In this document: one piece after another, positions 44,267 to 62,061 of the stretch
Numbering within the stretch: the first letter of the stretch is position 1
How the letters are laid out: each line of letters opens with the position of its first letter
Source of the DNA: Nitrospira sp.
Lineage (GTDB): Bacteria; Nitrospirota; Nitrospiria; Nitrospirales; Nitrospiraceae
DNA: 64,000 bases
NCBI GenBank assembly: GCA_013140455.1
Contig: JABFSU010000057.1
Span: 1-64,000, forward strand
Direction of reading: 5' to 3'
The notes under the pieces: generated by a model
The model's input: only the letters and a program-made list of their open reading frames with translations
The model's database searches: none
Told to the model about the DNA's origin: nothing
Program-made: the position numbers and the translations under genes

Positions 44267-44481
44267 AAAAACCCGTGCTTCGGCGTTCCCTGCCTCCGCC
44301 GAAGCGCTTCGCGCAGGCAGGTCGCTGCGATCAAAGGCTCGACGTATGCAAGAGTCGACTTGAGGCAAAGGGCCTATCCGCTCGCATGTGATCGAAGCGA
44401 GCGGGTCAAGCGAAGCTTGGTATGTACCTCCTCGCTTCTTCACTTGCTGCGGCCTTGCTGAACGGGCTTTTTGAGTCTCTT
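44258..44481 (-). repeat. MITE-like element with terminal inverted repeats, family B copy 2
   Basis: 224-bp element, inverted relative to the copy at 10646. The left end reads aagagactgaaaaaacccgt and the right end, on the other strand, aagagactcaaaaagcccgt. The interior is close to identical with copy 1 (for example gaggaggtacataccaagct on the minus strand). It contains the stop codons of both flanking convergent genes, which therefore end inside repeat sequence. Confidence 0.87.
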
Positions 44482-46756: not shown

Positions 46757-46768
46757 AGGACGATTCCG

Positions 46769-47362
46769 TTACTGCAACGACTGCTCCACAATGGACTTCG
46801 CCCCGGTCAGGATCGAGGCACCGTCACCCACTAACACCGAATCGAACTGGTATTTCAGCAGACGACGCAATCCGTCTTTGGCCTTCTCCCGATCCGCATA
46901 CTTCTCGGCCGGCAGCATGGAGAGTGCCCCGGCCGGCTTCCCGATCAAGGCATCGCCGAGGATCAAGACGCCCTGGCGTTGCTGAATGAAGAGGGCGGAC
47001 TCTCCGGGAGATTTCTGATCTTTGAGTTGAATCGCCCAAATCCCGCCGACCAGCAATTCCCCGTCTTTAAACGTCTTCGTCGGGGTGAGATCCATCTGCG
47101 GGGCATCCACCTCCGGCACGTGCAGCTGACAGCGGAACTCATCCCGATACTTCACTGATTCGCGCACATGATCACGATTCGTGACGATGATGTAATCGAC
47201 AGGACCGTTGCGCAACACCACCGCGCTCGCATCACCGGTCATCGGCGGAGGGTCGACGAGAATCTTATGCTCGCCTACCGTCAGAAAGAGCCCGTTGAAA
47301 TCGATCTGCTTCTCCTCAGAGAACCAGGACCATTGCCAGATACCGGGAAGAATGTTTTTCAT
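46769..47362 (-). CDS. Degenerate metallo-beta-lactamase-fold protein
   Basis: 197-aa protein that reads like a metallo-beta-lactamase fold: NGLFLTVGEHKILVDPP, VDYIIVTNRDHVRES (in place of the HxHxDH zinc motif), SPGESALFIQQRQGVLILGDAL, and DSVLVGDGASIL at the end. Two of the usual histidines are missing, so zinc binding is probably reduced or absent. It lies 12 nt upstream of the TPR gene and may share its operon. Confidence 0.7.
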   Translation of the reverse strand: MKNILPGIWQWSWFSEEKQIDFNGLFLTVGEHKILVDPPPMTGDASAVVLRNGPVDYIIVTNRDHVRESVKYRDEFRCQLHVPEVDAPQMDLTPTKTFKDGELLVGGIWAIQLKDQKSPGESALFIQQRQGVLILGDALIGKPAGALSMLPAEKYADREKAKDGLRRLLKYQFDSVLVGDGASILTGAKSIVEQSLQ

Positions 47363-47408
47363 AGATACGAACCGATGGCGCCTCGCCGATCACAGATGGC
47401 ACGAGGGC

Positions 47409-47648
47409 TCACAGCGCAGCCACGGCATCCTTTACGACTTTCGTGACCTTGGCCAGAATACCGGCGTCATTGGGGAGATCCAGGATATCGTCTTCGGACA
47501 CCGTGATGAATTTCCGGTTCGGCCCCTTGGTGAAGGAGATCAAGAACATACTGTTCGACGGAGTGACCGGAATCACGACCTGCACCGCCGCATCCACCTC
47601 CTTGATCACATCCAAAAACTTCTGCTTCCCCGCTTCCATCTCATCCAT
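47409..47648 (-). CDS. Small hypothetical protein
   Basis: 79-aa acidic protein (VVIPVTPSNSMFLISFTKGPNRKFITVSEDDILDL; helical C-terminus AKVTKVVKDAVAAL, written in parts). No family recognised. It lies between the beta-lactamase-fold gene and the TlpA-like gene, on the same strand. Confidence 0.65.
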   Translation of the reverse strand: MDEMEAGKQKFLDVIKEVDAAVQVVIPVTPSNSMFLISFTKGPNRKFITVSEDDILDLPNDAGILAKVTKVVKDAVAAL

Positions 47649-47696
47649 CCTTTTCTCCCCTCACCCACTCGGCGCGGCGGCCAGAGCATCCCAGTA

Positions 47697-47741
47697 TGCG
47701 CGCGTTGAACGAGCACAGCCTCACCGTGCGCGTTCCGCGAG
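47697..47741. repeat. Dispersed GC-rich repeat, family A copy 3 (inverted, diverged)
   Basis: Reads tgcgcgcgttgaacgagcac through gcgcgttccgcgagc. Compared with the reverse complement of 25548-25593 the two ends match well (tgcgcgcgt-gaacgag and gcgcgttccgcgagc) and the centre differs. Confidence 0.6.
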
Positions 47742-47768
47742 CAGCGGGAGCCCTGGTTGACACGCCTC

Positions 47769-48302
47769 TTACATCTTATTCGCGCCGCCCACCAGCAACT
47801 TCTCAACCTCTGCCGTAATCACATCCGCCGCCGCAAGATCCATGTTCCCGACCCGCTGCCATCGGATGACCCCGGCCTGATCGATCACATACACGTTGGG
47901 GATAAACTTTCCGCCGCCGTAGAGTTTGTCGGTAACTTTCCCCGGATCGAGCAGATAGGGATAGGTGACTTTCACAGGAAAAGCAGAGAGGAACTCGCCG
48001 ACGCTCTTCTTCGAGTCGCCGGAAGAATTGACGCCCACCACCGCCACATCCTTGCCCTTCGTCAGCTCGGACACTTTCTGGAGGGTCGAGCCCTGCATCA
48101 TACAAGGATCGCAGATATGAAACAGGCCGAGGACAATGACTTTCCCCTTATAGGCATCTAACGACACCGTCTCGCCGGTAATCGCCGTCAACGTAAACGA
48201 CGGCGCTTTCTCGCCTACTTTGAAGAATCCAGCCGCCAGCACCAGATGCGCCGCGAAAACCGGAAAGAGTACCGCCCCGAGCACCCACAGAGATCGCTTC
48301 AT
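47769..48302 (-). CDS. TlpA-like exported thioredoxin
   Basis: 177-aa periplasmic thiol-disulfide protein of the TlpA/ResA type. A signal peptide (SLWVLGAVLFPVFAAHLVLA) is followed by a peroxiredoxin/TlpA domain with GEKAPSFTLTAITGE, the redox site FHICDPCMMQ (CxxC), and a cis-Pro region GKFIPNVYVID. It is likely involved in cytochrome c maturation or thiol maintenance. ATG 48302 opens the signal peptide. Confidence 0.88.
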   Translation of the reverse strand: MKRSLWVLGAVLFPVFAAHLVLAAGFFKVGEKAPSFTLTAITGETVSLDAYKGKVIVLGLFHICDPCMMQGSTLQKVSELTKGKDVAVVGVNSSGDSKKSVGEFLSAFPVKVTYPYLLDPGKVTDKLYGGGKFIPNVYVIDQAGVIRWQRVGNMDLAAADVITAEVEKLLVGGANKM

Positions 48303-48440
48303 AACAGCCTCCTTCGCCATCGATCAAACAACCGAATGAACGACGAACGCTATCCTACCATGCAGAATTTTTCAGGGGCAACGGCAGACAACAGATCCAT
48401 CTGGTTTCACCCCACACCCGGCGTTGTGTGGCGCTTTGAT

Positions 48441-49697
48441 TCACCGATGGAACAGGTGACGGATCGAAGCCGGAGGAGAGAGCCATCGTGAGAGCGTGTG
48501 AATAGGGCTCACTCCGCGAGCGAGCCAGGGCAACAACCGGCGCCAGCGGAACCAAGCCGGCGGCGCTTGCACGATCGGATCGTGACTGCGACACAACGCG
48601 ATCCCGTATCGCCACCGCGCATTCCAATCATCTTGAAGAGTAAACAACAACGCCCCGACATCGCGATCGTCGAGCCCCTCCTGCTGTTGCAGAAGCAGGC
48701 TTTTCGGCATGCGTTGGGCCAAACTCAAGACATCGGAATCAGCCGCAATCATGTTCAGGATCTGTGGGGGAATGGGCGCCTCCATGACTCGATGGGACAG
48801 CGCCAGACCAAGCAGCAGGACCCGATAACATTTCCATTCCAGGGCGGTCGTGAGCACCCGCTTCCAATTCAGCCGCCCGGCACGGATAAGTCCGGCCGCC
48901 TCCGTCACCAAGCTGAGTTGTCCCCACGCCTGATGTGCTCCATGCATGCAGAGCACAAGCAACACTTCCTCCGGAGCCATCCCCTTGATCTTCCGGCCGT
49001 TCAGCGAGACCGGCCTGGCGTGCCCCCACACCTCCGGCCGGTCAATAGGGAAGATCATACGCGCATGTCTCACCGCCCACAGCAGCTCGACCTGACAAGA
49101 CGTGCCGGCGTGAAGATAGACGAGCGGCCGCTCGCATACACCGGCATCAACAGTGCGATCACTCGCCCCTCCGCGCACAGAATAGCCCTGTGAGATCAAC
49201 GCCCGCTCTGCATCCGCAAGTTGCTCCCGGCGCACAAGCGCGACCAGATCGGCGTGAGCACAGAGCGTGGGATCACCGTAGATCATGGCTGCCAAGCCGA
49301 CACCCCTGAAAGGAAGCACCGAGACTCCGGCCTCGCCAAAGGCCCGAGATAGGCGAAGCAGTTCAGCCGCTCCAGCTCGATTCGCGGCGGCCGCCTCTTC
49401 CGTCCGCCGGCGAAGCGCATCCAGATCCGCCGGGGGAACAAGGTCCGCACACAGTTCGGTCAGCGTCCTGGCGAGCAGGGACTCGACCCCATGGCTCTTG
49501 GCCAACTCCAGCAGCAACGGCCAATTCAAACCGGCTTGCGCGACATCAAGAATCCGGCGACGGAGAGACTCAGGCACCGCCGCTCTGGCGCACCAGATGA
49601 GGAATTGGGCCTCCCGGAAACGCACCGGGTTCACCCATCCGGCAGACGCCGTCGTAGATGCCGCTCCATCGACCGGATGTCGAAACGAGAATCCCAC
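48441..49697 (-). CDS. RiPP-cluster nucleotidyltransferase 2 (NTP_transf_5 type), probably inactive
   Basis: 418-aa member of the uncharacterised nucleotidyltransferase family found in lasso-peptide and exopolysaccharide loci, paralogous to the gene at 59052. The N-terminal helical part (FLIWCARAAVPESLRRRI) and the body align well, but the catalytic motif differs: FRGVGLAAMIYGDPTLC-AHADLVALV, where paralogue 1 has LRDFSDLDLLI. The second Asp of DxD and the preceding Arg/Asp are lost, so catalysis is doubtful. GTG start, two nt after the hydroxylase stop. Confidence 0.85.
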   Translation of the reverse strand: MGFSFRHPVDGAASTTASAGWVNPVRFREAQFLIWCARAAVPESLRRRILDVAQAGLNWPLLLELAKSHGVESLLARTLTELCADLVPPADLDALRRRTEEAAAANRAGAAELLRLSRAFGEAGVSVLPFRGVGLAAMIYGDPTLCAHADLVALVRREQLADAERALISQGYSVRGGASDRTVDAGVCERPLVYLHAGTSCQVELLWAVRHARMIFPIDRPEVWGHARPVSLNGRKIKGMAPEEVLLVLCMHGAHQAWGQLSLVTEAAGLIRAGRLNWKRVLTTALEWKCYRVLLLGLALSHRVMEAPIPPQILNMIAADSDVLSLAQRMPKSLLLQQQEGLDDRDVGALLFTLQDDWNARWRYGIALCRSHDPIVQAPPAWFRWRRLLPWLARGVSPIHTLSRWLSPPASIRHLFHR

Positions 49698-49699
49698 CG

Positions 49700-50743
49700 C
49701 TAAACCCTCCTCTCGAGCAACCGAGTCACGCCGCGAACCGCACTGACAAAGGGAGTCCCATAGAGCTTGGAAACCGTGGCAAATTCCTGGGACTCTCCCC
49801 CAGGAATCCCGACGCGCAATACCTCCGGCTTCCCCGGAGCGTACAACGTGCCAAAGAGCGCATCCCAGAGAGTAAATTTCACCCCAAAGTTCTTATTCCA
49901 ATGCCGAGGGTCGATGCTGTGATGAAGCTGGTGGTGTGCCGGGCTCATCACAAGCCGGTTCAACCAAGGCCCATAGGACATCCAGATATGGGAATGCCGA
50001 AGATGAGTCCCCAGCAACCCATAGACAAACCCGAAAATGCTCACGCCGAAGATCATCATGAACTGGCGGTCACGTCCGAGCACATTTTGAAACAACAGAG
50101 CCGACAGTCCGACCACCGGCGCTTGCAGCACCACTGTGATCAGATTTTCAACCGGATGCACCCGAAACGCAGCCGCCGGAGTCAACACCTCGGCGGAATG
50201 ATGCACTTGGTGGAATGACCAGAGGACGGGATTCCTGTGGAGCCACACATGCGCCCAGTAATTGATCAGATCGGACAAGAGCAGAAACCCCATCGTCGCG
50301 ACGGCGATCGTCGCCGGGGTCATTGACCCGGGAGGCTCCCAGCCCATTCGCTGGATGACCACCGCCGAGAGAATCTTAGCGGTCAGGAGGCCAACCCCTG
50401 AGAAGACCGGGATCCACATAAGAAAATTCAGCACAAGATCGACAGCCATGAAACGTAGATCCAACAGCGTGGACGGATGGCGATAAATGTGAGCCGGAAA
50501 CGCATACTCGCGAAAGGACGTGGCGGTCGTTCCGCCCTGCCGCAGTGCGACAAGATAGAGCAACCAGGCCAACACCAGACTGGAGAGCAGATACGGCCAG
50601 GCCAGCCCGTTCGTGAAGTTGACGAACACCAACGGAATCCGCTCAAGGGCCTCTTGAAAACTGGCCCAGGAGTGGAATGACGCAAACACCGTCTCCCACA
50701 CCCGCTCAAAGAACCAGCTGATACGCTCGATCATAGCCGACAC
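49700..50743 (-). CDS. RiPP-cluster membrane di-iron hydroxylase 1 (sterol desaturase/fatty acid hydroxylase superfamily)
   Basis: 347-aa integral membrane protein of the fatty acid hydroxylase superfamily. The di-iron His clusters are WAHVWLHR, WSFHQVHHS, and HHQLHHSIDPRH with the later NFGV motif. About five membrane helices. It shares its layout, including SAEVLTP and YGP-L, with the gene at 51453, so the two arose by duplication. Its place between precursor 1 and NTase 2 suggests it may oxidise the peptide, a membrane partner or a lipid; this is inference. ATG 50734 is an alternative start. Confidence 0.88.
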   Translation of the reverse strand: MSAMIERISWFFERVWETVFASFHSWASFQEALERIPLVFVNFTNGLAWPYLLSSLVLAWLLYLVALRQGGTTATSFREYAFPAHIYRHPSTLLDLRFMAVDLVLNFLMWIPVFSGVGLLTAKILSAVVIQRMGWEPPGSMTPATIAVATMGFLLLSDLINYWAHVWLHRNPVLWSFHQVHHSAEVLTPAAAFRVHPVENLITVVLQAPVVGLSALLFQNVLGRDRQFMMIFGVSIFGFVYGLLGTHLRHSHIWMSYGPWLNRLVMSPAHHQLHHSIDPRHWNKNFGVKFTLWDALFGTLYAPGKPEVLRVGIPGGESQEFATVSKLYGTPFVSAVRGVTRLLERRV

Positions 50744-50914: not shown

Positions 50915-51043
50915 TTAGCTGATGCAGGCGTTATCCACTGCCTTCTGACACTGCTCCTTGTACTTCTGACCCGTCACATCGCGCAGCAATTCATGCGCGA
51001 CCAACACAGGCTCCGAGTACGCTTCCTTCTTCTGTTGCTCCAT
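50915..51043 (-). CDS. RiPP precursor peptide 1
   Basis: 42-codon gene with a strong AAAGGGGGTGAA ribosome-binding site before ATG 51043. The leader begins MEQQKKEAYSE and carries PVLVAHELLRDVTG, shared with precursors 2 and 3. Spacing matches the lasso-leader rule Y9-x2-P12-x-L14-x3-(E18 for Gly)-x5-T24. The segment after it is QKYKEQCQKAVDNACIS with two Cys and a C-terminal Ser, a possible HPr-kinase-like target. No Asp/Glu lies 7-9 residues after a Gly1, so a classical lasso ring is not evident. Confidence 0.88.
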   Translation of the reverse strand: MEQQKKEAYSEPVLVAHELLRDVTGQKYKEQCQKAVDNACIS

Positions 51044-51291: not shown

Positions 51292-51429
51292 CTAGAAGTT
51301 GGCACCGTCGCTCTCCTTACCGCCCTTGTCACTAGTCTTCACTCCGGACGCGCCACCGGTCACATCGCGCAACAATTCATGCGCGATCAATACAGGCTCC
51401 GAATACGATTCCTTCTTCTGTTGTTCCAT
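51292..51429 (-). CDS. RiPP precursor peptide 2
   Basis: 45-codon gene, ATG 51429, with an AAAGGGGGTGAA site. The leader (MEQQKKESYSE, PVLIAHELLRDVTG) is nearly identical to precursors 1 and 3. If cleavage follows the lasso rule (Thr at -2), the core is GASGVKTSDKGGKESDGANF: Gly1 and Asp9, an arrangement allowing a 9-residue macrolactam ring. The GxSG start recurs in precursors 4 and 5. Lies between hydroxylase 2 and precursor 1. Confidence 0.9.
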   Translation of the reverse strand: MEQQKKESYSEPVLIAHELLRDVTGGASGVKTSDKGGKESDGANF

Positions 51430-51452: not shown

Positions 51453-52529
51453 TTAAAGTCCCTCAGAACGCACGGCATCCTGAGAGCGAGTGAGCGGGCC
51501 GGACGCAACGCTTCGCCGGATCAATCTTCCTACGCGTTGGAACGGCCCGGCATACAGCTTCCCAACCGTCGAAAACTCGTCCTTCTTCATACCGACAAGC
51601 CCGAATTGGAGGCATTCGTGGCGATCCGGCACGCAAAGCGTACCGAAGACCCAGTCCCATAGTGCGAACTTCACGCCGAAGTTCTTATCGTGATGCCGAG
51701 GATCAATGCTGTGATGCGTTTGGTGCACGATCGGACTCAGCAGCACACGATCAAGCAGGGGACCGTAGGAAATAGGAAGATGCGAATGCTGCAGGTGGAA
51801 TCCAGATAGTCCATACATGAACGCCACAAGACTCACGCCGAACACGGTCGTCACAGCTAACTCGTGCGCCGGAATGGCCTGATAAAAGATGAACGCCGAT
51901 CCGATCACCGGCACACGAAAGATCGTCGTGACAAAGAATTCCACCGGGTGGGCGCGATAGGCCGAGAGCGGAGTCAATACTTCAGCCGAATGATGGACCT
52001 GGTGAAATGCCCACAGCAGCGGAACTTTGTGGAGCAGCATGTGGCTCCAGTAGTTCATAAAGTCGTGCAGCAGATAGAAGCCCAGCGCTGCGGCAAAGAG
52101 GGCCGGCACGGACAAGGTGACCGGAGGTGCCCACCCCGCATAGCCGGCCAAGACGGCACTCCCGATCTTCCCGGCAATGGCGCCGAGGCCGGCCAGCATG
52201 GGGAAACAGAAGAACACATTGAAGAGGAGACTCACGACATAGAATCGGTAGTCCAACCTCGCGGAGGGATGGGCGAACACGTGAGCAGGAAAGAGAAAGG
52301 CCGAGAATGCTTTTGCCGACCATGCGGCTCGCGGCTTGGACAGGAGGTACGCTCCCCCCGCTATCGTCACACTGGCCAGCGCATAGGGCCAGGCCAGGCC
52401 GCTAGTGAACCGGGTAAACATCCCGCTGATCTCACCGACAGCAGCCGTCACACCGTCCCAGGAAGAGACGGCGGACAAGGCGTATTCCGCACATCTCTCG
52501 AGAAACCATTGCACCGTCTCAAACGACAT
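51453..52529 (-). CDS. RiPP-cluster membrane di-iron hydroxylase 2
   Basis: 358-aa membrane protein, paralogue of the gene at 49700. His clusters: YWSHMLLHK, AFHQVHHS, VHQTHHSIDPRHH. About five membrane helices (FLFPAHVFAH, LFNVFFCFPMLAGLGAIAG, among others). The start MSFETVQWF at 52529 matches the N-terminus of the paralogue and has an AAAGG site; an open frame continues upstream to 52601. Two precursor genes flank it (3 upstream, 2 downstream), and peptide hydroxylation is a possible role. Confidence 0.88.
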   Translation of the reverse strand: MSFETVQWFLERCAEYALSAVSSWDGVTAAVGEISGMFTRFTSGLAWPYALASVTIAGGAYLLSKPRAAWSAKAFSAFLFPAHVFAHPSARLDYRFYVVSLLFNVFFCFPMLAGLGAIAGKIGSAVLAGYAGWAPPVTLSVPALFAAALGFYLLHDFMNYWSHMLLHKVPLLWAFHQVHHSAEVLTPLSAYRAHPVEFFVTTIFRVPVIGSAFIFYQAIPAHELAVTTVFGVSLVAFMYGLSGFHLQHSHLPISYGPLLDRVLLSPIVHQTHHSIDPRHHDKNFGVKFALWDWVFGTLCVPDRHECLQFGLVGMKKDEFSTVGKLYAGPFQRVGRLIRRSVASGPLTRSQDAVRSEGL

Positions 52530-52553
52530 CTGCCTTTCACCCTTTCCCATCCC

Positions 52554-52587
52554 TGGGTTGACCGCCCCCTGCGGGACGGCCAACCCA
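52554..52587 (-). promoter_or_regulatory. Stem-loop downstream of precursor 3
   Basis: TGGGTTG...CCAACCCA arms (52554-52560 and 52581-52587) with an inner CCG/CGG and CCC/GGG extension. It starts 26 nt after the precursor 3 stop. Confidence 0.72.
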
Positions 52588-52612
52588 AGAACAGCCCGCA
52601 CACTCGCGTGAA

Positions 52613-52741
52613 CTAGACGGGACCCTCACTACCGGCTTTCTCCGGGCTCTTCTCCCTGTACTTCACCCCCGTCACGTCGCGCAGCAATTCATGCGCGATC
52701 AACACGGGTTCGGAGTACGACTCCTTCTGCTGTTGTTCCAT
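52613..52741 (-). CDS. RiPP precursor peptide 3
   Basis: 42-codon gene, ATG 52741, with an AAAGGGGGTGAA site. The leader (MEQQQKESYSE, PVLIAHELLRDVTG) is of subtype 1-3. The segment after Thr24-Gly25 is VKYREKSPEKAGSEGPV, resembling precursor 1 at its start (xKYxE). No Gly1 plus Asp/Glu7-9, so no classical lasso ring unless another ring chemistry applies. Follows HPrK-2. Confidence 0.87.
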   Translation of the reverse strand: MEQQQKESYSEPVLIAHELLRDVTGVKYREKSPEKAGSEGPV

Positions 52742-52864: not shown

Positions 52865-53899
52865 CTACGCCGCGGATCGCGCGTCAAGCAGCGGACGGAT
52901 CAACTTGGGCAGATCAAGGATGTCCCGGCCGAAGTGGAGCCGATAGCAATCGACCTGCTGAACGAGCTTCGCCAAGGCCTCAAACTCACGGCGGGCCACG
53001 GCCTGGTCATAGACCAACAACCCCTGCGGCATCAGCGCCTCGAGGGCGCGGCTCTTTGGCAGCGGCTCCAGACAGCTATGCGGCATATCAACGACGTGCG
53101 GGAACATGATGATGGCCGGCCTGCAGGTGCGGCCGATGGACTCGGCATAGAGGTCTTCTGACTGAAAGTGTTTCTTCTGGACCCCTTGTTTCAACAGCCC
53201 GGGGGGCGCATCGCGCAGCTCAGGGAAAAACTCGATCGTCCGGTCTGTCACATCGATCTTCATGGGGAAGGCAAGCAGTTCCATCTGCGTGCCTCGGTCG
53301 CGGAGCAAGGGATAGTCGTCGGAGAGATAATGGAATCCCGACCGCAGGAGCGACAAGAACGACGTCGTCTTCCCCTGGCCGCTATAGCCCGGAATCAAGA
53401 CGCCCTGGCCCGCATATTCCAACGCCGTCGCATGGACGGTAAACAGGCCGTTGCGCTTCAGCAGCTCAGCCAGCGCGAAGTGGAGAAAGCTCGTCCGCAC
53501 ATCCGGATGCATCGCGTCGGGTCGAATGAAGTAGCCTTCCACCAGATTTCTCGCGCCATCGATCACCAGCACACCCTGTTCATGAAAGTCGGCAATGAGC
53601 CGGTCCCCGTCCTGCACGATCTCGCATTGCCACAGCGGACGCATCGTGTCCCCCAGAGAGGGCCGCTCCCCTGCAAACAACACCTTCGAACCCGCCGACT
53701 TCGTGACCGGGACCTCCGCTCGACTTGCCACCTCGCCAAACTGAATCGTGAGCACCGACGCTCCCTGCGCAGCGGCCGCATGGAAATAGCGGAGGAAGGT
53801 GAGCGCTGGATCGATAAATGCAGGAATAGACGTCCGAAACCGGAGATCAAGGCCATGACAATTGAACAGATACTCGCCGGCGGTGACCGCTGTATTCAT
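52865..53899 (-). CDS. RiPP-cluster HPr-kinase-like kinase 2
   Basis: 344-aa protein with the HPr kinase/phosphorylase-like C-terminal domain: Walker A GYSGQGKTTSFLSLL, then FHYLSDDYPLL with the acidic pair, and a conserved end (YDQAVARREFEALAKLVQQV). Homologous kinases in lasso clusters phosphorylate a C-terminal Ser of the precursor (known for paeninodin-type clusters); here this is inference. ATG 53899 with a GGAGG site is preferred over the open frame up to 53971. 79 nt after PqqD-2. Confidence 0.9.
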   Translation of the reverse strand: MNTAVTAGEYLFNCHGLDLRFRTSIPAFIDPALTFLRYFHAAAAQGASVLTIQFGEVASRAEVPVTKSAGSKVLFAGERPSLGDTMRPLWQCEIVQDGDRLIADFHEQGVLVIDGARNLVEGYFIRPDAMHPDVRTSFLHFALAELLKRNGLFTVHATALEYAGQGVLIPGYSGQGKTTSFLSLLRSGFHYLSDDYPLLRDRGTQMELLAFPMKIDVTDRTIEFFPELRDAPPGLLKQGVQKKHFQSEDLYAESIGRTCRPAIIMFPHVVDMPHSCLEPLPKSRALEALMPQGLLVYDQAVARREFEALAKLVQQVDCYRLHFGRDILDLPKLIRPLLDARSAA

Positions 53900-53978
53900 G
53901 ACATCCTCCACTAGAGAAATTGGTTCCTTCTTCAACCCCGGCCAGCCCGTGCGAACTGCGCGGTGGTGCAATTCCTAT

Positions 53979-54437
53979 TCACGCCTGTTCAATGGTTAAC
54001 AGCCCCTCGTGGCTCAGATGGGTCACGAGGGCGAACAGATCATCGGCAATTCGCTCCGGCGGAGCGTCGAACCGCCCGCACAGGGCGGCGTGGATGGCCT
54101 GAAGGGACTGTGTTCCCGTACAGATTTCCCAGATCGCGCTGCCGACCCGATTCAACGTGTAGTAGCGGCCTGTGCTCAGATTCAGCAATACGGTCTCACC
54201 ATCGAGCGTCGTACCCTGAACATCCGGATTGGGGCGCGGCACCGCCGACATGAGCGCTTGACGGGTATCCTGCCTGCCCCGTTCAATCTGCTGCTGTTCC
54301 CCCTCCGACAGGACGGCACGAGCCGCTTCGGCCAGTTGCGCGGTCGTGGCCTGGCCCGACGGCGACACCTGCCCAGGCTCGGACTCCACAGTCATATCCG
54401 GCCTCAAGTCGGCGGTAATAAACGGCTGTCTCCCCAT
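53979..54437 (-). CDS. RiPP-cluster PqqD-like leader-binding protein 2
   Basis: 152-aa protein ending in a PqqD/RRE-type winged-helix domain (~70-150): GETVLLNLSTGRYYTLNRVG, SAIWEICTG, IHAALCGRFDAPPERIADDL. PqqD-like proteins (lasso B1) bind the precursor leader and present it to the modifying enzymes. The first ~70 residues are a variable, Gln/Glu-rich extension absent from the shorter paralogue at 61720. ATG 54437 with an AAGGGAG site. Confidence 0.9.
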   Translation of the reverse strand: MGRQPFITADLRPDMTVESEPGQVSPSGQATTAQLAEAARAVLSEGEQQQIERGRQDTRQALMSAVPRPNPDVQGTTLDGETVLLNLSTGRYYTLNRVGSAIWEICTGTQSLQAIHAALCGRFDAPPERIADDLFALVTHLSHEGLLTIEQA

Positions 54438-54478: not shown

Positions 54479-55378
54479 CTACGCGCGTCCGGCACAGAGC
54501 AAATCGGCTAAGGCATCGCCGATCCGTTGCCCCGTATGGTTTTCGAAAAAGGTAAACCCCGGGCTGGTATTGACTTCGAAACAGTAATAGGTGCCGTCCG
54601 GTGTCCGGCGAAGATCGATCCCGCTCAGGCTCAATCCCAGTCCTTTGGCGAGATTGAGGCAGCGGGTCTGGACACTCGGCTCCAATTCGACCGCTCTCAT
54701 GGTGCGTTGCTTATCCTCGCGCTCGGCATACCGGTAATCCGCTCCATCCGACAGCACCTCGGTTGCAAACAACCGGTCTCCGACCGTGTGAACCCGCACA
54801 TCAGCGCCGGGAATGGTTTCTTGCAGTTGCACCGGGCAGGTCCGGATCTGTTCCAGGCGGGGAAAATCAGCCGGCGTGAGAGGCCGCACGATCGACCGCT
54901 CCGCGCTGATGGATTTGTAGATGACGCGCCCCTGACAGGCGTCATAGAAACGGCGCGCTTCCTCCGGCACCATCGTCACCAGCGTCTTCGGAACCATAAA
55001 GCCATACTGCTCGATCAGCCGCTGCTGATAAGGCTTCGACATGTTCGTATGCGATGCCTGGCGCCGGTTGACGACCAGGACCGGCAGACTTTCAGCGAAC
55101 TCCCAGAGCGTCGTCGCCACCATACGCTCACGAGGCGCCGAGCCTGACCGGACGCCGACTCCTCGGAGGTACACCGCATTGATACTTGCGGCATCGATGA
55201 CCCGCTGGCCGAGACGGATGCGCCCCACAGCCTGACCGCTGTCGGTCGACCAGGATACGTCCCAGTCCTGTCCGTCCGACTCCGGATGGACGAGCATCAG
55301 ATCAGCGTTCCGGACTGCGAGTCGGGCACACACGTTCGCGAGCACTGAATCGGCCATCGGCCCCATGAGAAGAATCAT
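54479..55378 (-). CDS. RiPP-cluster ATP-grasp ligase 1
   Basis: 299-aa ATP-grasp protein of the RimK/MvdD-like shape. An N-terminal alpha/beta region (AASINAVYLRGVGVRS) is followed by the ATP-grasp fold: VIYKSISAERSIVRP, VQLQETIPGADVRVHTVGD, and the metal/ATP site GIDLRRTPDGTYYCFEVNTS with intact E-x-N. Such enzymes form amide or ester bonds between peptide side chains, or ligate amino acids. No lasso cyclase is present nearby, so this is the best candidate for a bond-forming step. It overlaps ATP-grasp 2 by 77 nt; ATG 55357 is an alternative start. Confidence 0.88.
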   Translation of the reverse strand: MILLMGPMADSVLANVCARLAVRNADLMLVHPESDGQDWDVSWSTDSGQAVGRIRLGQRVIDAASINAVYLRGVGVRSGSAPRERMVATTLWEFAESLPVLVVNRRQASHTNMSKPYQQRLIEQYGFMVPKTLVTMVPEEARRFYDACQGRVIYKSISAERSIVRPLTPADFPRLEQIRTCPVQLQETIPGADVRVHTVGDRLFATEVLSDGADYRYAEREDKQRTMRAVELEPSVQTRCLNLAKGLGLSLSGIDLRRTPDGTYYCFEVNTSPGFTFFENHTGQRIGDALADLLCAGRA

Positions 55379-56294
55379 GATGCGAAAGACTCCTCAGTTT
55401 GGAAAGATGTTGGAGCAGATGCTCCACAATCTGCTGCTGGGCATCTTGCGGACAGCGCCAGAAATTCGGCGCGCTGCTGATATCGAGGCAGGAGACTCCT
55501 CCCTCGGGGGTAATCACGATCTGGCACTCGGCGAACGTCAGCCCCAAGGCGCGCACGAGGCCAAGGCACTGCGCGGGGTGAACCGACAACACCTCCATCG
55601 GCTGGGTGACCCTGTCACCAGGGCGAAGCACCGTGGCCACGACTTCCTCTCCCGCCACATAGACCGTCGCCTGTTGCCCCGGTGGGATCGCTTGGAGTGA
55701 CACCGCCTGCTGCTCCATGACTCGGCGGATCTGCTCGGCCCCATCGTGCGAATGCAGGAACTGACCCGGCTCGACCGATCCGAGAGGCTTGAGGTAGGCC
55801 GCCTCGCCCCACGCCATGAATTGCTGCAGGGCATCGGCTTGGCTTGACGTACAGCGGGAAGCCGGAAGGAGAAATCCATGATCCTGAGCGAGCTTCGCCA
55901 GCAACGGGCTCCCCGAAAGGAGCGTGGGCCTGCCACCTGGAATTGGTCGATTGACCACGGAACAGGGCATGGCATTCAAGAAGGCCAGCCAGGCGGCGGT
56001 CGACTCCTTGGTCACATACTGGGCATCAGCGTCCGAGAGCCCCTCAAGATCCAAACGGAGGGGGAACGGAAGACGAGCAAAAATACCCGTCAGGTCATCA
56101 AGGAGAATCGTCCGGCCGTCGATTTCCAGAGATCCGGGAACGAACGCCTCTCCCTCCATGACCGGCCAATTGAGCAGGATCGTATCCAGAAGTCGCAACG
56201 GTTCAACCCAAAAGACCGCACCCCCCGTCCGTTGGGCTTCCCGATGGACAAGCGTGGCCCAGGGATCGGTCGAATCGGCAAGAATAAGAATCAC
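55302..56294 (-). CDS. RiPP-cluster ATP-grasp-like protein 2, probably degenerate
   Basis: 330-aa paralogue of ATP-grasp 1. The fold pattern is kept (AYLKPLGSVEPGQF, ATVYVAGEEVVATVLRPGD), but the C-terminal metal site reads VSCLDISSAPNFW where the active copy has YCFEVNTSPGF: the usual Glu is Asp and the Asn is Ser. Catalysis may be lost, leaving a role in binding or in a heterodimer with ATP-grasp 1. GTG start with a GGAGAGGAG site, first gene after the operator-like palindromes at 56427-56455. Confidence 0.83.
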   Translation of the reverse strand: MILILADSTDPWATLVHREAQRTGGAVFWVEPLRLLDTILLNWPVMEGEAFVPGSLEIDGRTILLDDLTGIFARLPFPLRLDLEGLSDADAQYVTKESTAAWLAFLNAMPCSVVNRPIPGGRPTLLSGSPLLAKLAQDHGFLLPASRCTSSQADALQQFMAWGEAAYLKPLGSVEPGQFLHSHDGAEQIRRVMEQQAVSLQAIPPGQQATVYVAGEEVVATVLRPGDRVTQPMEVLSVHPAQCLGLVRALGLTFAECQIVITPEGGVSCLDISSAPNFWRCPQDAQQQIVEHLLQHLSKLRSLSHHDSSHGADGRFSARERVCPTRSPER

Positions 56295-56556: not shown

Positions 56557-58383
56557 CTACTGGTAGTGTTGCGCTTGCGTGAGGAATAACGAGGCATAGA
56601 GGCCTTGGCGGCCCATCAAGTCATCATGGGTGCCCTGCTCCACGATCTGACCACGATCCACCACGAAAATCCGGTCGGCCATTTTCACCGTGGACAACCG
56701 ATGACTGATTAAAATAGCCGTCCGCCCTTGTGCGAGTTCGTGGAACCGTTCGAACAACTCCGCTTCCGCCTTGGCGTCCATGGCACTGGTCGGTTCGTCG
56801 AGAATCAGGACTTGGGAATTGCGGAGGATAGCCCTCGCCAGCGCCACCTTCTGCCATTCCCCGATACTCAGCTCATGCCCCCCGTCGAATAACTTGCCCA
56901 ACAAAGACTCGTAGCCCTTCGGCAAACGCTCGATGGCCTCATGCACTCCGGCTTGCTTGGCAGCCTGCACGATCACCGGAAGTGCAACCTCCGACGCATT
57001 GCCCCCCATCGTGATGTTGTCTTTGGCGGAAAACTGAAACTTCACAAAATCCTGAAAAATCCCGCTGACCGCCCCGCGGACATCAGCGATGGCGTAGTCA
57101 CGAATATCCGTCCCGTCGATCGTAATACGACCGCTCGTGGGATCGTAGAGACGACATAACAGTTTCACCAACGTGGTTTTCCCTGCGCCGTTGGCTCCGA
57201 CAAACGCCACATGCTCGCCGGGCTTGATCGTAAAGGTGAAGTCGCGGACGGCCACCCGTTCTTCATGGGGATATTGAAACGACACCTGCTCGAACACAAT
57301 CCCCTGCCCGAGCGAAGCAGGAAACGGCCGAGGACGGACCGCTTCGGGCAACTTCGAGCGAATCGCCAGAAATTCGTTCAGCGTCGTCAGAAAGAGATTG
57401 CTCTCATACAAGTTCGACACACTCCAGCCCAGCCCTTCGAGAAACCCTGAGGCCCGCTGAATGGCCTGAAAGAACATGACCAGGTCGCCGACCGTCAAGA
57501 GCCCATGAAACGTTCGCACCGCCACGAAACTGTAGACTCCGAAGACTCCTGCGACGCCTACGATCTGCGCCGCCAACCCGGCAAACGCCCATCGGCGTTC
57601 TAAGGCGATCCGCTCCCGCCGCAGCACCGTTCGCGCCTCGCGGAACCATTCCCGCAGCCGGGGGCCGAGGTCGAAGAGACGGACCTCTTTGGCCGCGGTG
57701 GCCTGGGTCAACAACATGTTGACGTACCAGGCCTTTCGTTCCAGCGGTGTCCGCTCGCGCTCCCATGCAAACAGCCGGTTGGACTGCTGCAGGCGGACAA
57801 AGAAATATGGAATCGCCGTCAGGGCGAGGACCGGAATGACGGCCCAGTGCAACCACCAGAGAATGCCCGCCATCGCCAGAAGCGAAATGCCGTCCTGGCC
57901 GAATTGAAGCAGCGCATTGAGGATCGACGTCGGGCGATACGGCGCTTCCTGCTGTGCCCGATGCAGCGTATCCTGGTAACGGGCATTCTCGTAATACTCA
58001 AGATCGACCTCGACGGATTTGGCCTGCAACAACGCATGCATATGATCCGTGACAACCTGCGCATGAATCCTGGAGATTAAGGATGCCGCGACGGTAAGCA
58101 TCGCGCTCACCAGTGCGGCCCCTGCCAGGCCCGCGAGAATCGTCGTAATGGGGGTCAACGAGGCATCCTGCGAGGGAGCCTTGAGCCCCTCCGTCACCGC
58201 ATCGATCAACAGTTTGGTCAGATACAGCACGGCCAGGGGAAGCAGCCCCTGGATGACCCGCACGACGATACTGCCGACCGCAAGACTCGGACTGCTCTGC
58301 CAGACAAACGAAAGGGCATACCGAAGCGTCTGGAGGAAGGGACGTATGCGGAGGATAAGACTATTCATGGAGATAGGTTGCAC
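56557..58383 (-). CDS. RiPP-cluster ABC exporter
   Basis: 608-aa half-transporter with a fused permease (about six helices, residues ~20-320) and an ATPase: Walker A FVGANGAGKTTLVKLL, signature ELSIGEWQKVALARAI, Walker B VLILDEPTSAMDA, switch His in ILISHRLST. There is no N-terminal C39 peptidase, so the leader must be cut by another enzyme (the B2-like protease). It likely exports the mature peptide and confers self-protection, as lasso D transporters do. ATG 58368 is an alternative start. Confidence 0.93.
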   Translation of the reverse strand: MQPISMNSLILRIRPFLQTLRYALSFVWQSSPSLAVGSIVVRVIQGLLPLAVLYLTKLLIDAVTEGLKAPSQDASLTPITTILAGLAGAALVSAMLTVAASLISRIHAQVVTDHMHALLQAKSVEVDLEYYENARYQDTLHRAQQEAPYRPTSILNALLQFGQDGISLLAMAGILWWLHWAVIPVLALTAIPYFFVRLQQSNRLFAWERERTPLERKAWYVNMLLTQATAAKEVRLFDLGPRLREWFREARTVLRRERIALERRWAFAGLAAQIVGVAGVFGVYSFVAVRTFHGLLTVGDLVMFFQAIQRASGFLEGLGWSVSNLYESNLFLTTLNEFLAIRSKLPEAVRPRPFPASLGQGIVFEQVSFQYPHEERVAVRDFTFTIKPGEHVAFVGANGAGKTTLVKLLCRLYDPTSGRITIDGTDIRDYAIADVRGAVSGIFQDFVKFQFSAKDNITMGGNASEVALPVIVQAAKQAGVHEAIERLPKGYESLLGKLFDGGHELSIGEWQKVALARAILRNSQVLILDEPTSAMDAKAEAELFERFHELAQGRTAILISHRLSTVKMADRIFVVDRGQIVEQGTHDDLMGRQGLYASLFLTQAQHYQ

Positions 58384-58443: not shown

Positions 58444-58860
58444 TCACGGTTGCCCTGGCGGAAACGAATAGGTGACGGTGAAACACTGCCAATGCCGGCC
58501 GGGCTCGTAAAATGGGGCTCGATCGAGCGTCAACCAGGCATGGCCATCAAGGCCGGTTCCGTCTTTTCGCACTCCGCAGTGAAACAACACCGGATAGCCG
58601 GATCGTGTGGCGAACCAATACAACGCCAACGACCGGGGAAAGCAATTTCCCTTCGCGTTGTATGGAAAGAGTTGGAGCCACCGGTCCGTATAGTAGACGA
58701 GGTCCTCGAACCGCGCCGAATCAGGCTCCCCGGACAGTGCGCCGGGATCCAGCCGTTTCAACACCGCCGGAAGACTCTCACCGCGTAACCGGAGGCGAAT
58801 CCAGGACACGATCGCAGCCACCTGGAGCAACATCCAATACTTTCTTACCACTCGCTTCAT
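58444..58860 (-). CDS. RiPP-cluster lasso B2-like leader peptidase
   Basis: 138-aa transglutaminase-like cysteine protease of the lasso peptide B2 type. The triad is visible: Cys in KGNCFPRSLALYWFATR, His in LDGHAWLTLD and the Asp that follows. B2 removes the leader after B1/PqqD has bound it. The start ATG 58860 matches the usual length; the frame open further upstream has no family similarity. Only one B2 is present for two PqqD-like proteins. Confidence 0.9.
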   Translation of the reverse strand: MKRVVRKYWMLLQVAAIVSWIRLRLRGESLPAVLKRLDPGALSGEPDSARFEDLVYYTDRWLQLFPYNAKGNCFPRSLALYWFATRSGYPVLFHCGVRKDGTGLDGHAWLTLDRAPFYEPGRHWQCFTVTYSFPPGQP

Positions 58861-59051
58861 CGTGGGCTCACTGTCACAAGTCGTCCGGCAAATTCCAGCA
58901 ATCACTGCCTCCTCGCTCACTCGACCATGCTCCACACGTTCAAGAGGCCAGCGACACGATCGCCGTTGCACCGGATGTTCCAGGCATGGCCGCCAGGGTT
59001 CGTCAAGCTTGGAGAATGGATGGCTTAGAATGAATTAGCTCGACGGGACCA

Positions 59052-60272
59052 TCAGCCTCCGTGTTCAACCCATCGATTGATCGCGCCTCGAATTGAAGAT
59101 GGCACCAGAGTCCTCACCGCTCGCTGGCACGGCCGAACGAGATGAGCCAATCGCATGAGCCCCCTCCCACGGGAAAACCAGCTTGGCGGATTGTCCACAA
59201 CTGACGAGCCGTCCCGGCACAGCACCAGGCCGAATCGCATCCGTTCCCACCAGGTATCCTTCAACGTCAAGTAGAAGGCCACGGCCTGCTCCTCACTGAC
59301 CCCGTTCCGGGGACTCGCCAAGAGGCTTGCCGGCATACGCTCAGACAACATCCGGACATCGGCATCGGTCGAATAGCGCGCATAGACGGATTGCGGGATC
59401 GGCGCATCCAGCACCCGATGCGCCAGCGCCAATCCAATGTGAATTAATCGTCGGCAACCCCAGGCCCTTGCGTTTGCAAAGATCCGCTCCCAGTCAAGAT
59501 CCGGATGTGAGCGGAGAAGTTCCGCGACATCGCAGACCCATTTGAGCTGTTCCCAGGCATGCTTCGAGCCATGCACGCAGAGAAGGATCAGAAGCTCCTC
59601 GGGCGCCAACCCTTGTACAGTCGAATTCCCCAGCGACATAGGCGACCGATGTGCCCAGAACTCCGGACGATCCAACTGAAAGGCAAAGTGCTGATGCGCC
59701 ATCACCCACTGGAGATCGACACGAAACAGGCTGCGCTTCTTGATATACACATGATAGGGCCCCTCTTCGTGCTCCGCTTCCGCAGGGTCGCTCGAAGGAT
59801 CTTTCCGTTCATAGCCCTGGGCGAACAGGACCGCTTGCGCGGCCCCGGTCGCAGATTCGGAAATCAGGAGGTCGAGATCGCTGAAATCGCGGAGCGTCAG
59901 ATCGCCATAGGCGGACAGCGCCAGAGTCGCGCCTTTAATCGGCACAACCGGGACACTGCGCGCGGCAAACGCGTCACACAGGCTTCCAAGCTCCTGCGCA
60001 AGCGATCGATTCAGCAAGGCACAGGCTTGCGTTTTCTGACGCAGCCTCGTCAGCGTATCGCCCGGCACGAGAGAAGGACAAATTGCCGACAGATTCCGGT
60101 ACAGAAGCGGAAGCACCCCGTGATACGCGGCGAGATCCAGCATTAGTCCCCAATCGAGAGGCTCCTGGACCCGCGCGCAGATGTGCGCGCGCAGTTCCTC
60201 GGCGACGGACGTGCGCGCGCACCAGACCAGCAGTTCTGCTTCAGGCGACCACGGAAACTGTCGCGGTTGCAT
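59052..60272 (-). CDS. RiPP-cluster nucleotidyltransferase 1 (NTP_transf_5 type)
   Basis: 406-aa uncharacterised nucleotidyltransferase with an intact active-site motif: IKGATLALSAYGDLTLRDF followed by SDLDLLI (D-x-D). The helical rest aligns with the paralogue at 48441. Homologues accompany HPr-like kinases in lasso clusters, where they may add nucleotide groups to the phosphorylated peptide; this is known only for a few systems and inferred here. ATG 60272 shares one nucleotide with the HPrK-1 stop (TAATG), so the two are coupled. Confidence 0.9.
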   Translation of the reverse strand: MQPRQFPWSPEAELLVWCARTSVAEELRAHICARVQEPLDWGLMLDLAAYHGVLPLLYRNLSAICPSLVPGDTLTRLRQKTQACALLNRSLAQELGSLCDAFAARSVPVVPIKGATLALSAYGDLTLRDFSDLDLLISESATGAAQAVLFAQGYERKDPSSDPAEAEHEEGPYHVYIKKRSLFRVDLQWVMAHQHFAFQLDRPEFWAHRSPMSLGNSTVQGLAPEELLILLCVHGSKHAWEQLKWVCDVAELLRSHPDLDWERIFANARAWGCRRLIHIGLALAHRVLDAPIPQSVYARYSTDADVRMLSERMPASLLASPRNGVSEEQAVAFYLTLKDTWWERMRFGLVLCRDGSSVVDNPPSWFSRGRGLMRLAHLVRPCQRAVRTLVPSSIRGAINRWVEHGG

Positions 60273-61288
60273 TATCGCCCCTTCTCCAGCAATGGCGTGA
60301 TCAGCTTCGGCAAGTCCAGAATATCGCGACCGAAATGCAGGCGGTAACAATCGACCTGCTGCACGAGTTTCGCCAGCACCTTAAATTCACGCCTGGCGAC
60401 CTCTTGATCGTAGACCAGGAGGGCTTGCGGCAAGAGCGCTTCCAATGCCCGGCTCTTGGGAAGCATCTCGAGGTGGCTCTGTGGCGCATCCACGACATGA
60501 GGAAAAAGCACCAGGGCCGGCCGGCAGCGCTCCCCGACCCCCGTGGGATAGAGGTCTTCGGCATAAAAGAATCGTTTGGGCACTCCAGGATGAAGCACCT
60601 GCTCTGAGGCCGCTCTGAGCTCCGGGAAAAACTGGACCGTGGCGTCCGTGACATTGATCTTAATCGGGAACGGCAGCACTTCCACCTGCGCCCCCGAGTC
60701 CTGCAGAAGCGGATGGTCATCCGACAGATAGCGATAGCCCGACCGGAGCAAGGAGATAAACGAGGTGGTCTTCCCCCGCCCGCTGTTGCCGGGAATCAAG
60801 ATGGCGCGCCCGTTGTGTTCCAAAGCCGTCGCATGAATCGTATAGAGCCCACCCCGCCGCAACAATTCGATCAGCGCCAGGTGAAACAGATATTCAATGA
60901 GGTTGGAGGGCAGCCGCTCCGGATTGATCAGATAACCGTCGGCCCGACTCTGTGCGCCGTCGACCACCAACACCCCGATCCCATGGAACTCTGCGATTAG
61001 AAGCCCCTGATCCAGAATCACGTCGTAAGGCAATCCGTTCGCTCGCCGATCCCCGACGGCCTCCCCCGTACCTGACGCCAGCTTCCGAGCCGACGCAGAA
61101 ATCGAGAGCGGGACTTGCGTCCGGTCCGCCACCTGATGCAAACGAATGGCCAGAACCGCATCGGATTCGAGCGAATCCCTACGGAAATTCCGCAATAACT
61201 CGTTCACCGGGTGCGCCAGAACCGGCACATCCGTCTCATACCTGACCGCTGTGCCATAGAGGGAATACCAGTATTCAGCCATGCCCAT
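60272..61288 (-). CDS. RiPP-cluster HPr-kinase-like kinase 1
   Basis: 338-aa paralogue of the kinase at 52865 (shared HATALE, LLRSGYRYLSDDHPLL, LVQQVDCYRLHFGRDILDLP). Walker A is PGNSGRGKTTSF. The start is uncertain: ATG 61288 has a GAGGA site about 10 nt upstream, and 61297 and 61282 are possible; a longer frame to 61465 would run into precursor 4 and is unlikely. It follows precursor 4 and precedes NTase 1. Confidence 0.88.
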   Translation of the reverse strand: MGMAEYWYSLYGTAVRYETDVPVLAHPVNELLRNFRRDSLESDAVLAIRLHQVADRTQVPLSISASARKLASGTGEAVGDRRANGLPYDVILDQGLLIAEFHGIGVLVVDGAQSRADGYLINPERLPSNLIEYLFHLALIELLRRGGLYTIHATALEHNGRAILIPGNSGRGKTTSFISLLRSGYRYLSDDHPLLQDSGAQVEVLPFPIKINVTDATVQFFPELRAASEQVLHPGVPKRFFYAEDLYPTGVGERCRPALVLFPHVVDAPQSHLEMLPKSRALEALLPQALLVYDQEVARREFKVLAKLVQQVDCYRLHFGRDILDLPKLITPLLEKGR

Positions 61289-61353
61289 TTCTACCATGTC
61301 CTCGTGATTCAACCGATCTATTTCTTCTCCCTGCCACCCCGCATCGGGGAGAC

Positions 61354-61391: not shown

Positions 61392-61523
61392 CTAGTCGTT
61401 ATTTCGCCACCAGCGCTTCTTATCATCGTCGCAATTGTAGCCCGACTGACCCGCCGTAATATCACGCAACAATTCGTGCTTCACCATCACCGGCTGAACG
61501 TACGACTCTTTCTTCTGTTCCAT
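61392..61523 (-). CDS. RiPP precursor peptide 4
   Basis: 43-codon gene, ATG 61523, with a GAGGAGG site. Leader subtype 4-5: MEQKKESYVQ then PVMVKHELLRDITA, with Y8-x2-P11-x-M13-x3-E17-x5-T23. Taking Thr as -2, the core is GQSGYNCDDDKKRWWRNND: Gly1 with Asp8, 9 or 10, which allows an 8- or 9-residue macrolactam ring, and two bulky Trp further on that could act as a plug. The most lasso-like of the five. Between precursor 5 and HPrK-1. Confidence 0.92.
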   Translation of the reverse strand: MEQKKESYVQPVMVKHELLRDITAGQSGYNCDDDKKRWWRNND

Positions 61524-61598: not shown

Positions 61599-61712
61599 CT
61601 ACTCCTCACACTGACGGCAAATCACCTGGCCTGACGTGCCCGCCGTAATGTCGCGCAGCAACTCGTGCTTCACAACTACCGGCTGAGCATACTGTTCTTT
61701 CTTCTGTTCCAT
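61599..61712 (-). CDS. RiPP precursor peptide 5
   Basis: 37-codon gene, ATG 61712, with a near-perfect AAAGGAGGTGAA site that lies within the end of PqqD-1. Leader subtype 4-5 (MEQKKEQYAQ, PVVVKHELLRDITA). The core would be GTSGQVICRQCEE, with a C-x2-C pair and Glu only at 12-13, so a standard 7-9 ring cannot form; a disulfide or another linkage is possible. Seven nt after PqqD-1. Confidence 0.9.
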   Translation of the reverse strand: MEQKKEQYAQPVVVKHELLRDITAGTSGQVICRQCEE

Positions 61713-61719
61713 CTGTTCT

Positions 61720-62061
61720 TCACCTCCTTTCTTGTTGAAGTAACCCTTCCTGAATCAGTTCATTGGCCAGATCGACGAGATCGTCGAGGGCACGTGACGG
61801 TACGACGTCAAACCGGTCACAGATGGCCGCATGAATATCTGTCATCGTGCTGTGCCCGGTACAATGCTCCCAGATCACGCTCCCTAGTCGGTTCAACGTG
61901 TAATACCGACCCGTGCTGAGGTCCAAGAGAACTGTTTCTCCATCCATCGTCGTACCTTGGACGTCCGGATTCGACCGTAAAACGATGCGATCAAGCTGCG
62001 CTCGGTCGATCGCAGATCCTGTCGTACCAGGCAATGTCGTCGTAGATGCTCTCTCTGCCAT
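61720..62061 (-). CDS. RiPP-cluster PqqD-like leader-binding protein 1
   Basis: 113-aa PqqD/lasso B1-like protein. It shares NPDVQGTTMDGETVLLDLST, GRYYTLNRLGSVIWEHCTG and IHAAICDRFDVVPSRALDDL with the paralogue at 53979 but lacks its long N-terminal extension. It should bind the leaders of precursors 4 and 5, the next genes. AAGGAGG site nine bases before ATG 62061. First gene of the cluster. Confidence 0.92.
   Translation of the reverse strand: MAERASTTTLPGTTGSAIDRAQLDRIVLRSNPDVQGTTMDGETVLLDLSTGRYYTLNRLGSVIWEHCTGHSTMTDIHAAICDRFDVVPSRALDDLVDLANELIQEGLLQQERR

Follow-up and report, generated by a model that had tools for sequence, protein, structure and literature searches.

The 64,000 bases analyzed here (the window) carry a gene cluster that mixes graspetide with lasso and linear polyphosphorylated peptide (LPP) machinery. 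Five precursor genes with lasso-type leaders lie together with B1 and B2 proteins, an intact graspetide-type ATP-grasp ligase (AG1) and a degenerate second ATP-grasp protein (AG2), and no lasso cyclase is present on the contig or recognizable in the genome. We favor, with a probability of roughly 0.6, a reading in which AG1, together with AG2 and an extended PqqD protein, cross-links side chains of one group of precursors (class B), B2 removes the leader, and the other group (class A) is left uncyclized.

Organization of the cluster

The window comprises the first 64,000 bases of contig C142 (75,761 bases) in a 3.79-Mb assembly of 143 contigs that is 95.5% complete; the named near relatives from the AG1 profile search are Nitrospira MAGs. 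Along the minus strand, genes are ordered PilZ, PqqDa, two class A precursors, HprKa, NTa, B2, ABC, AG2, AG1, and PqqDb, followed by HprKb, three class B precursors among two PF04116 hydroxylases, and NTb. The five precursor genes were unannotated and all fall inside this cluster; four were recovered by a small-ORF scan of the gaps and the fifth by a pattern scan. The precursor profile A4 was built from ten precursors, with rows hand-picked from the window and related loci.

61720..62061, minus strand: PqqDa, discrete RRE/B1 without N-terminal extension (PF05402, 6.5e-17; no FIxx[DEH]LRP motif)
61599..61712, minus strand: class A precursor, 37 aa, core GTSGQVICRQCEE (ORF with RBS and lasso-type leader; A4 match)
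61392..61523, minus strand: class A precursor, 43 aa, core GQSGYNCDDDKKRWWRNND (A4 match; relatives at other loci)
60272..61297, minus strand: HprKa, HprK-like kinase (TIGR04352, 4e-17, below cut-off; P-loop GNSGRGKT)
59052..60350, minus strand: NTa, nucleotidyltransferase, NTP_transf_5 (PF14907, 9e-64)
58444..58971, minus strand: B2, transglutaminase-like leader peptidase (NF033537, 40.1 against a cut-off of 33 bits; PF13471, 1.4e-15)
56557..58383, minus strand: ABC exporter, MsbA-like (PF00005/PF00664; TIGR02203, 5e-83, below cut-off)
55302..56294, minus strand: AG2, degenerate graspetide-type ATP-grasp protein, 330 aa (proposed AG1 partner)
54479..55378, minus strand: AG1, intact graspetide-type ATP-grasp ligase, 299 aa (TIGR04187, fold, invariant site)
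53979..54437, minus strand: PqqDb, RRE/B1 with N-terminal extension RQPFITADLRP (PF05402, 2.5e-17)
52865..53971, minus strand: HprKb, HprK-like kinase of the AG module (TIGR04352, 1e-15, below cut-off; P-loop GYSGQGKT)
52613..52741, minus strand: class B precursor, core VKYREKSPEKAGSEGPV (lasso-type leader; A4 match; relatives elsewhere)
51453..52601, minus strand: FAH1, PF04116 hydroxylase, accessory (PF04116, 6e-23)
51292..51429, minus strand: class B precursor, core GASGVKTSDKGGKESDGANF (lasso-type leader; A4 match; relatives elsewhere)
50915..51043, minus strand: class B precursor, core QKYKEQCQKAVDNACIS (lasso-type leader; A4 match; relatives elsewhere)
49700..50743, minus strand: FAH2, PF04116 hydroxylase, accessory (PF04116, 3e-25)
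48441..49697, minus strand: NTb, nucleotidyltransferase, NTP_transf_5 (PF14907, 3e-42)

The HprKa start is likelier ATG 61297, as an ORF beginning at the listed 61465 would share bases with the second class A precursor, and for PqqDb the conserved start is ATG 54437, the listed ORF extending to 54479. B2 retains its Cys and His motifs and is the sole PF13471 match genome-wide. Pfam/NCBIfam scans of the cluster genes showed B2 and no signal peptidase, and no N-terminal peptidase domain in the ABC exporter. FAH1 and FAH2, which are interleaved with the class B precursors, are probably accessory tailoring enzymes, since the stretches of four related loci (L054, L055, L179, L180) contain no PF04116 match. 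Downstream of the cluster (44440-48320) lies a block encoding a TlpA-like protein, a 79-aa protein, Lactamase_B_5, TPR, a 145-aa protein, and a methyltransferase, and it keeps this position at loci without the ATP-grasp pair as well. Beyond the window (64,000-75,761), the contig carries what, judging from sequence alone, we take to be pur-, rib-, and nusB-like ORFs. Comparison with PHROGs gave no useful result.

One member of the ATP-grasp pair looks catalytic

A preliminary description of this DNA had pointed to two adjacent ATP-grasp proteins of the graspetide ring-closing kind in the middle of a cluster with lasso B1 and B2 parts. The lasso parts are real, both PqqD genes matching PF05402, and B2 matching NF033537 and PF13471, above cut-off. 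Both ATP-grasp ORFs are also in place, overlapping by 77 bases; the pair, however, consists of one intact and one degenerate protein, and the assignment to the graspetide kind held for AG1. AG1 matched the NCBIfam models TIGR04187 (3e-37), MvdD (7e-25), and MvdC (3e-22), each score under the curated cut-off. Its best solved relatives by sequence were the graspetide ligases PsnB (7drm, 6e-33), AMdnB, MdnC, PruB (9bou), CdnC, and MdnB, all six of which outranked RimK (3e-9). Foldseek comparison of the AF2 model (mean pLDDT 85) returned graspetide macrocyclases in rows 1 to 31 (PsnB, TM 0.84), followed by RimK. The ATP-grasp residues K115, K155, R195, D214, R216, D255, E268, and N270 were invariant in 13/13 rows of alignment A2. 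Sequence and predicted fold thus identify AG1 as a graspetide-type ligase.

AG2 aligned with AG1 over its full length (hhalign E 4e-27) and matched TIGR04187 at 1e-12, chiefly in the first half of the model, while its AF2 model (pLDDT 80) was nearest to MdnC and PruB at a TM of about 0.58, a moderate fit. In AG2 the ExN motif is replaced by DxS, the DYR stretch is missing, and other site residues are lost; hence we read it as a pseudo-enzyme partner, and only AG1 of the pair looks catalytic. Given this residue loss in AG2, we rejected an arrangement of two active ligases like MvdC/MvdD. The order AG2-AG1-PqqD is kept down to 45% AG1 identity.

More distant AG1 relatives occur in other settings. 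At thirteen loci (L056-L067, L074) they are accompanied by a short degenerate partner of about 240-250 aa, with no PqqD or B2 matches, and the neighbors, judged from sequence alone, are presumably large peptidase-, lectin-, or TIR-like proteins. These loci possibly represent a separate ATP-grasp protein-modification system. As a degenerate partner sits beside AG1 relatives in such unrelated contexts, the pairing of an active with a dead protein may predate the link to B1/B2. AG relatives in Verrucomicrobiota, Blastococcus, Parafilimonas, and Mucilaginibacter (L182-L186) had no adjoining B1/B2.

Two classes of precursor share a lasso-type leader

The A4 profile matched exactly these five precursors in their own genome. 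Among 395 Nitrospirota genomes it matched 48, 47 of which also had a B2 match, the single exception (G018) showing a weak partial A4 match. All precursors share a leader register with Tyr(-17), Pro(-14), Thr(-2), and a position -12 that is mostly hydrophobic (Y-17xxP-14...T-2), the same as that given for BsfA in the accessible text of PMC10368454. Thr(-2) was present in 33/33 class B and 20/20 class A peptides, counts that serve as a register check and no independent test because the lists were chosen by leader pattern and hand-sorted. The leader motif P[VIL][LVIA] occurred in 33/33 class B peptides vs. 9/20 class A, 0/18 type II, and 5/19 type III peptides (locus types are described below), and graspetide ligases bind a Phh-type leader motif according to the portion of PMC8939145 available.

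The cores differ between the two classes. Class A cores, encoded near PqqDa and HprKa, start GxSG or similar, and class B cores, near AG and PqqDb, are of the QKYKEK or GTSGVKTSDK type, rich in Lys, Glu, and Asp, and supply Lys, Ser, or Thr as donors together with Asp or Glu as acceptors. LppA (PMC13381572) and BsfA (PMC10368454) are phosphorylated at core Ser3 in the accessible parts of those papers, and this Ser was kept in 20/20 class A and 19/19 type III cores and in 12/33 class B cores. Class A does not need AG, as a class A1-type core occurs in a genome (G284) without an AG1 match.

An N-terminal extension marks the PqqD beside the ligase

The motif FIxx[DEH]LRP was found in the extension of all 17 AG-adjacent PqqDs of related loci and in that of the window (18/18), and in 0/75 other PqqDs, of which 14 came from AG loci, 17 from type III, 16 from type II, 16 from lasso-type, and 12 from other loci. 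A profile of the extension found no relative outside these PqqDs in the loci examined, the weaker matches being to the PqqD-proximal end. The idea that it is shared with proteins near second-class AG pairs, which would have marked it as a docking segment, was rejected, as no relative was found. RQPFITADLRP resembles the graspetide leader PFFARFL, a likeness that we treat as a lead only, and no graspetide-precursor model matched PqqDb in an NCBIfam scan. We infer that the extension docks the ligase.

Distribution of the ATP-grasp pair across Nitrospirota

AG1 relatives, many of them distant, were detected in 57 and B2 matches in 71 of 395 Nitrospirota genomes. We compared 18 AG loci (the window, L043-L055, L173, L176, L179, and L180), two of which (L049, L055) had no B2 gene within the stretch examined, with 67 B2 neighborhoods without the AG pair (L106-L172), five of these being sub-cut-off B2 matches; five other Nitrospirota loci of the contig scan were already in the set. 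Among the 67, an SGGxDS AsnB-type ORF lay beside B2 in 15 (true lasso type), L118 had an AsnB match without the SGGxDS motif, and L161 only an AsnB fragment at the edge of the stretch. Most of the remainder, dozens of loci, had neither cyclase nor AG within the stretch.

Type II comprised 18 loci that are placed on the chromosome like the cluster of the window (purF ... TlpA, SM, MBL, MT), including that site in a sister genus, without cyclase or AG. Type III comprised 17 loci with PqqD-HprK-NT-B2-ABC, a few clipped by contig ends, in an order matching PqqDa-HprKa-NTa-B2-ABC of the window. A further 16 AG-less loci fell outside any type, three of them (L170-L172) without B2 by the B2 model used. 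Very short cores (IQLSRVLDQ..) characterized type II loci (L121, L125, L129-L133, L136-L143, L149-L159), and Gly/Asn-rich cores starting xRSG characterized type III loci (L126-L128, L134, L144-L152, L165, L166), which look, by analogy, like B2-using LPP-like systems in Nitrospirota. At two cyclase-less B2 loci (L135, L146) a different leader (KKPFVEPVLFKHKEKLDEIT) preceded Ser/Thr/Arg-rich cores. Some type II genomes (G141, G171, G246) carry distant, second-class AG1 relatives.

A midpoint-rooted HprK tree of 84 rows separated cyclase-associated from cyclase-less kinases (SH-aLRT 100), except for the long-branched L168. From AG loci, the HprKa rows clustered with type III (100), type II formed one clade (100), and HprKb rows joined those of other AG loci in three lineages. 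By this tree, the PqqDa-HprKa-NTa-B2-ABC half of the window belongs to the AG-less kind. A midpoint-rooted B2 tree (133 columns) agreed in outline and was poorly resolved.

With precursor matches taken at E <= 1e-4, we scored cores for K..[DE]K, KY.E, or K.Y.E, a pattern that is descriptive because it was picked after the cores were seen. A pattern core was found at 17/18 AG loci vs. 0/40 AG-less loci and in 28/53 parsed peptides vs. 0/52, a count that leaves out three unparsed matches and weaker matches. Many of the 25 pattern-free peptides at AG loci were class A. L045 was the only AG locus without a pattern core, several class B cores at other loci also lacked the pattern, and the class A core of L046 matched it by chance. 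Three of the AG-less loci (L137, L163, L224) have AG on another contig of the same genome. Mapped on the HprK tree, the association amounted to one independent contrast over supported branches and two over all branches, which was not significant (b in the same direction, not significant), so that the link of AG to the cores and the PqqD extension is a correlation. Genome-wide, TIGR04187 matched only the AG pair in G000, G110, G149, and G189, all below the curated cut-off, and nothing in the AG-less G147, G274, G055, and G145.

A proposed pathway and its alternatives

We propose that PqqDb would bind the class B leaders (52741-52613, 51429-51292, 51043-50915) through Y-17xxP-14 and that its N-terminal extension would bring these precursors to AG1. 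AG1, bound to a catalytically inactive AG2, would turn a core Glu or Asp carboxylate into an acyl phosphate and couple this to the side chain of a Lys (or a Ser/Thr). The resulting lactam or lactone would most probably lie within KYxEK or KxxDK. Further groups may be added by the HprK-like kinase and nucleotidyltransferase, after which B2 would cut one residue past T-2 and the ABC protein would export the product. Class A (61712-61599, 61523-61392) would be phosphorylated at Ser3 with PqqDa, HprKa, and NTa, trimmed by the same B2, and remain uncyclized. A wider generalization, plausible at somewhat under even odds, is an RRE-guided graspetide family in which a PqqD adaptor reads the lasso-type leader and uses a grafted N-terminal segment to bring in a graspetide ligase with its pseudo-enzyme for crosslinking, HprK phosphorylates, and B2 trims, evolution having joined two RiPP classes via a changed adaptor, not a changed leader.

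Alternatively, the cluster may be a cyclase-less, LPP-like one producing linear phosphorylated peptides only, with an ATP-grasp pair that is vestigial or adds a non-cyclizing group, for example by RimK-like amino-acid ligation. Loci of the same family without cyclase and AG are common in the phylum, Ser3 is retained in class A and type III, and RimK is the next structural neighbor of AG1. AG1 nonetheless lies closer in both sequence and fold to graspetide ligases than it does to RimK, its site is kept across wide divergence, and Lys/Glu-rich cores and the PqqD extension accompany the pair, making this alternative unlikely, albeit one to be taken seriously.

Could AG1 instead close an N-terminal lasso-type ring, from the Gly1 amine to Asp/Glu at 8-9, and so stand in for the asparagine-synthetase-like cyclase? 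The lasso-type leader and B1/B2 are in keeping with this, and some cores that start with Gly1 are acidic at position 8 or 9: GTSGVKTSDK (D9), GQSGYNCDD (D8/D9), and GNGVKYREK of L054 (E8), such that lasso-like closure could apply to some peptides. Only some cores, however, combine Gly1 with Asp/Glu at 7-9; in roughly half the class B set, the core starts with Q, V, S, N, T, or L and places its Glu at position 5 (QKYKEK), misfitting a ring of 7-9 residues. Moreover, AG is absent from cyclase-less relatives, and known graspetide ligases join side chains (accessible text of PMC13097080). We regard ring closure of this kind as improbable.

A genome-wide PF00733 search returned four full-length matches and two partial ones, all of them on contigs other than C142, bearing out the preliminary description in that the window has no lasso cyclase. 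All four full-length proteins begin MCG, which we take as the mark of glutamine-dependent asparagine synthetase (GATase Cys), and ~20 kb around their genes contained no homologue of cluster genes. In three single-contig AG relatives (G110, G149, G189), the N-terminal Cys was likewise kept in 19/19 full-length PF00733 proteins (18 MCG, one VCG), whereas in a control set of B2-adjacent AsnB-type ORFs from other Nitrospirota it was absent in 13/15. A lasso cyclase elsewhere in the genome was rejected on these grounds, the AsnB proteins all being GATase-type and distant from B1/B2 genes. Although a cyclase gene could be missing from an assembly in 143 contigs that is 95.5% complete, a cyclase acting in trans beside an unrelated ATP-grasp pair is very improbable, given also that the pair is fixed beside PqqD in related loci. 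The proposal that ATP-grasp replaces the cyclase survives in part: there is no cyclase, lasso-type leaders lie beside AG1, and AG goes with Lys/Glu/Asp-rich cores. As worded it is not supported, since dozens of B2/PqqD/HprK/NT loci lack both cyclase and AG, weakening any general replacement. Ring closure by AG1 itself we infer.

Relation to known peptide classes

Relative to graspetides (microviridin, plesiocin, prunipeptin; MdnC, PsnB, PruB), AG1 is, in sequence and predicted fold, a ligase of their type, and class B cores likewise offer Lys/Ser/Thr donors and Asp/Glu acceptors. Unlike graspetides, this cluster has a lasso YxxP leader, an extended PqqD, B2, an HprK kinase, a nucleotidyltransferase, and a degenerate second ATP-grasp protein. 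The accessible text of PMC13097080 describes graspetide ligases as forming an acyl phosphate and then a side-chain lactam or lactone, reports partner dependence (MirC), and, for its graspetide groups 33 and 39, mentions transglutaminase-fold proteins; some overlap with this cluster is possible. The portion available of the main text of a 2022 graspetide phylogenomics study (PMC8939145) makes no mention of transglutaminase, HprK, or Nitrospir.

Phosphorylated lasso peptides (Bsf, paeninodin, pseudomycoidin), as presented in the accessible parts of PMC10368454 and PMC8498205, share the leader register, B1, B2, HprK kinase, nucleotidyltransferase, and ABC exporter; the cluster differs in having no cyclase, no consistent Asp/Glu at 7-9, and an ATP-grasp pair. 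LPPs, described in 2026, have an RRE, HprK, NTP transferase, MsbA-like exporter, Ser3 phosphorylation, SpI peptidase, and no cyclase, and occur, according to the text available for PMC13381572, in Bacillota only. The discrete RRE, HprK-like kinase, NTP transferase, MsbA-like transporter, YxxP leader, and lack of a cyclase are all found in our cluster, as is Ser3 in class A and type III cores, whereas the use of B2 rather than SpI peptidase, the occurrence in Nitrospirota rather than Bacillota, and the ATP-grasp module set it apart from LPPs as that text presents them. By analogy, class A of the window and the type III loci look like B2-using LPP counterparts in Nitrospirota.

Searches of open-licence PMC literature turned up, in the text covered, no ATP-grasp/B2/PqqD cluster with lasso-type leaders. 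Engineered lasso/graspetide enzyme chimeras have relied on a peptide that carries two leaders (available portion of PMC13003496). Here, with precursors, ligase, dead partner, and extended adaptor all adjoining, an environmental bacterial group seems to hold a natural, single-leader lasso/graspetide hybrid. If so, it would offer a portable route to graspetide crosslinks on lasso-leader peptides, show how RiPP classes mix, and extend cyclase-less LPP-like systems, with B2 as the peptidase, to another phylum.
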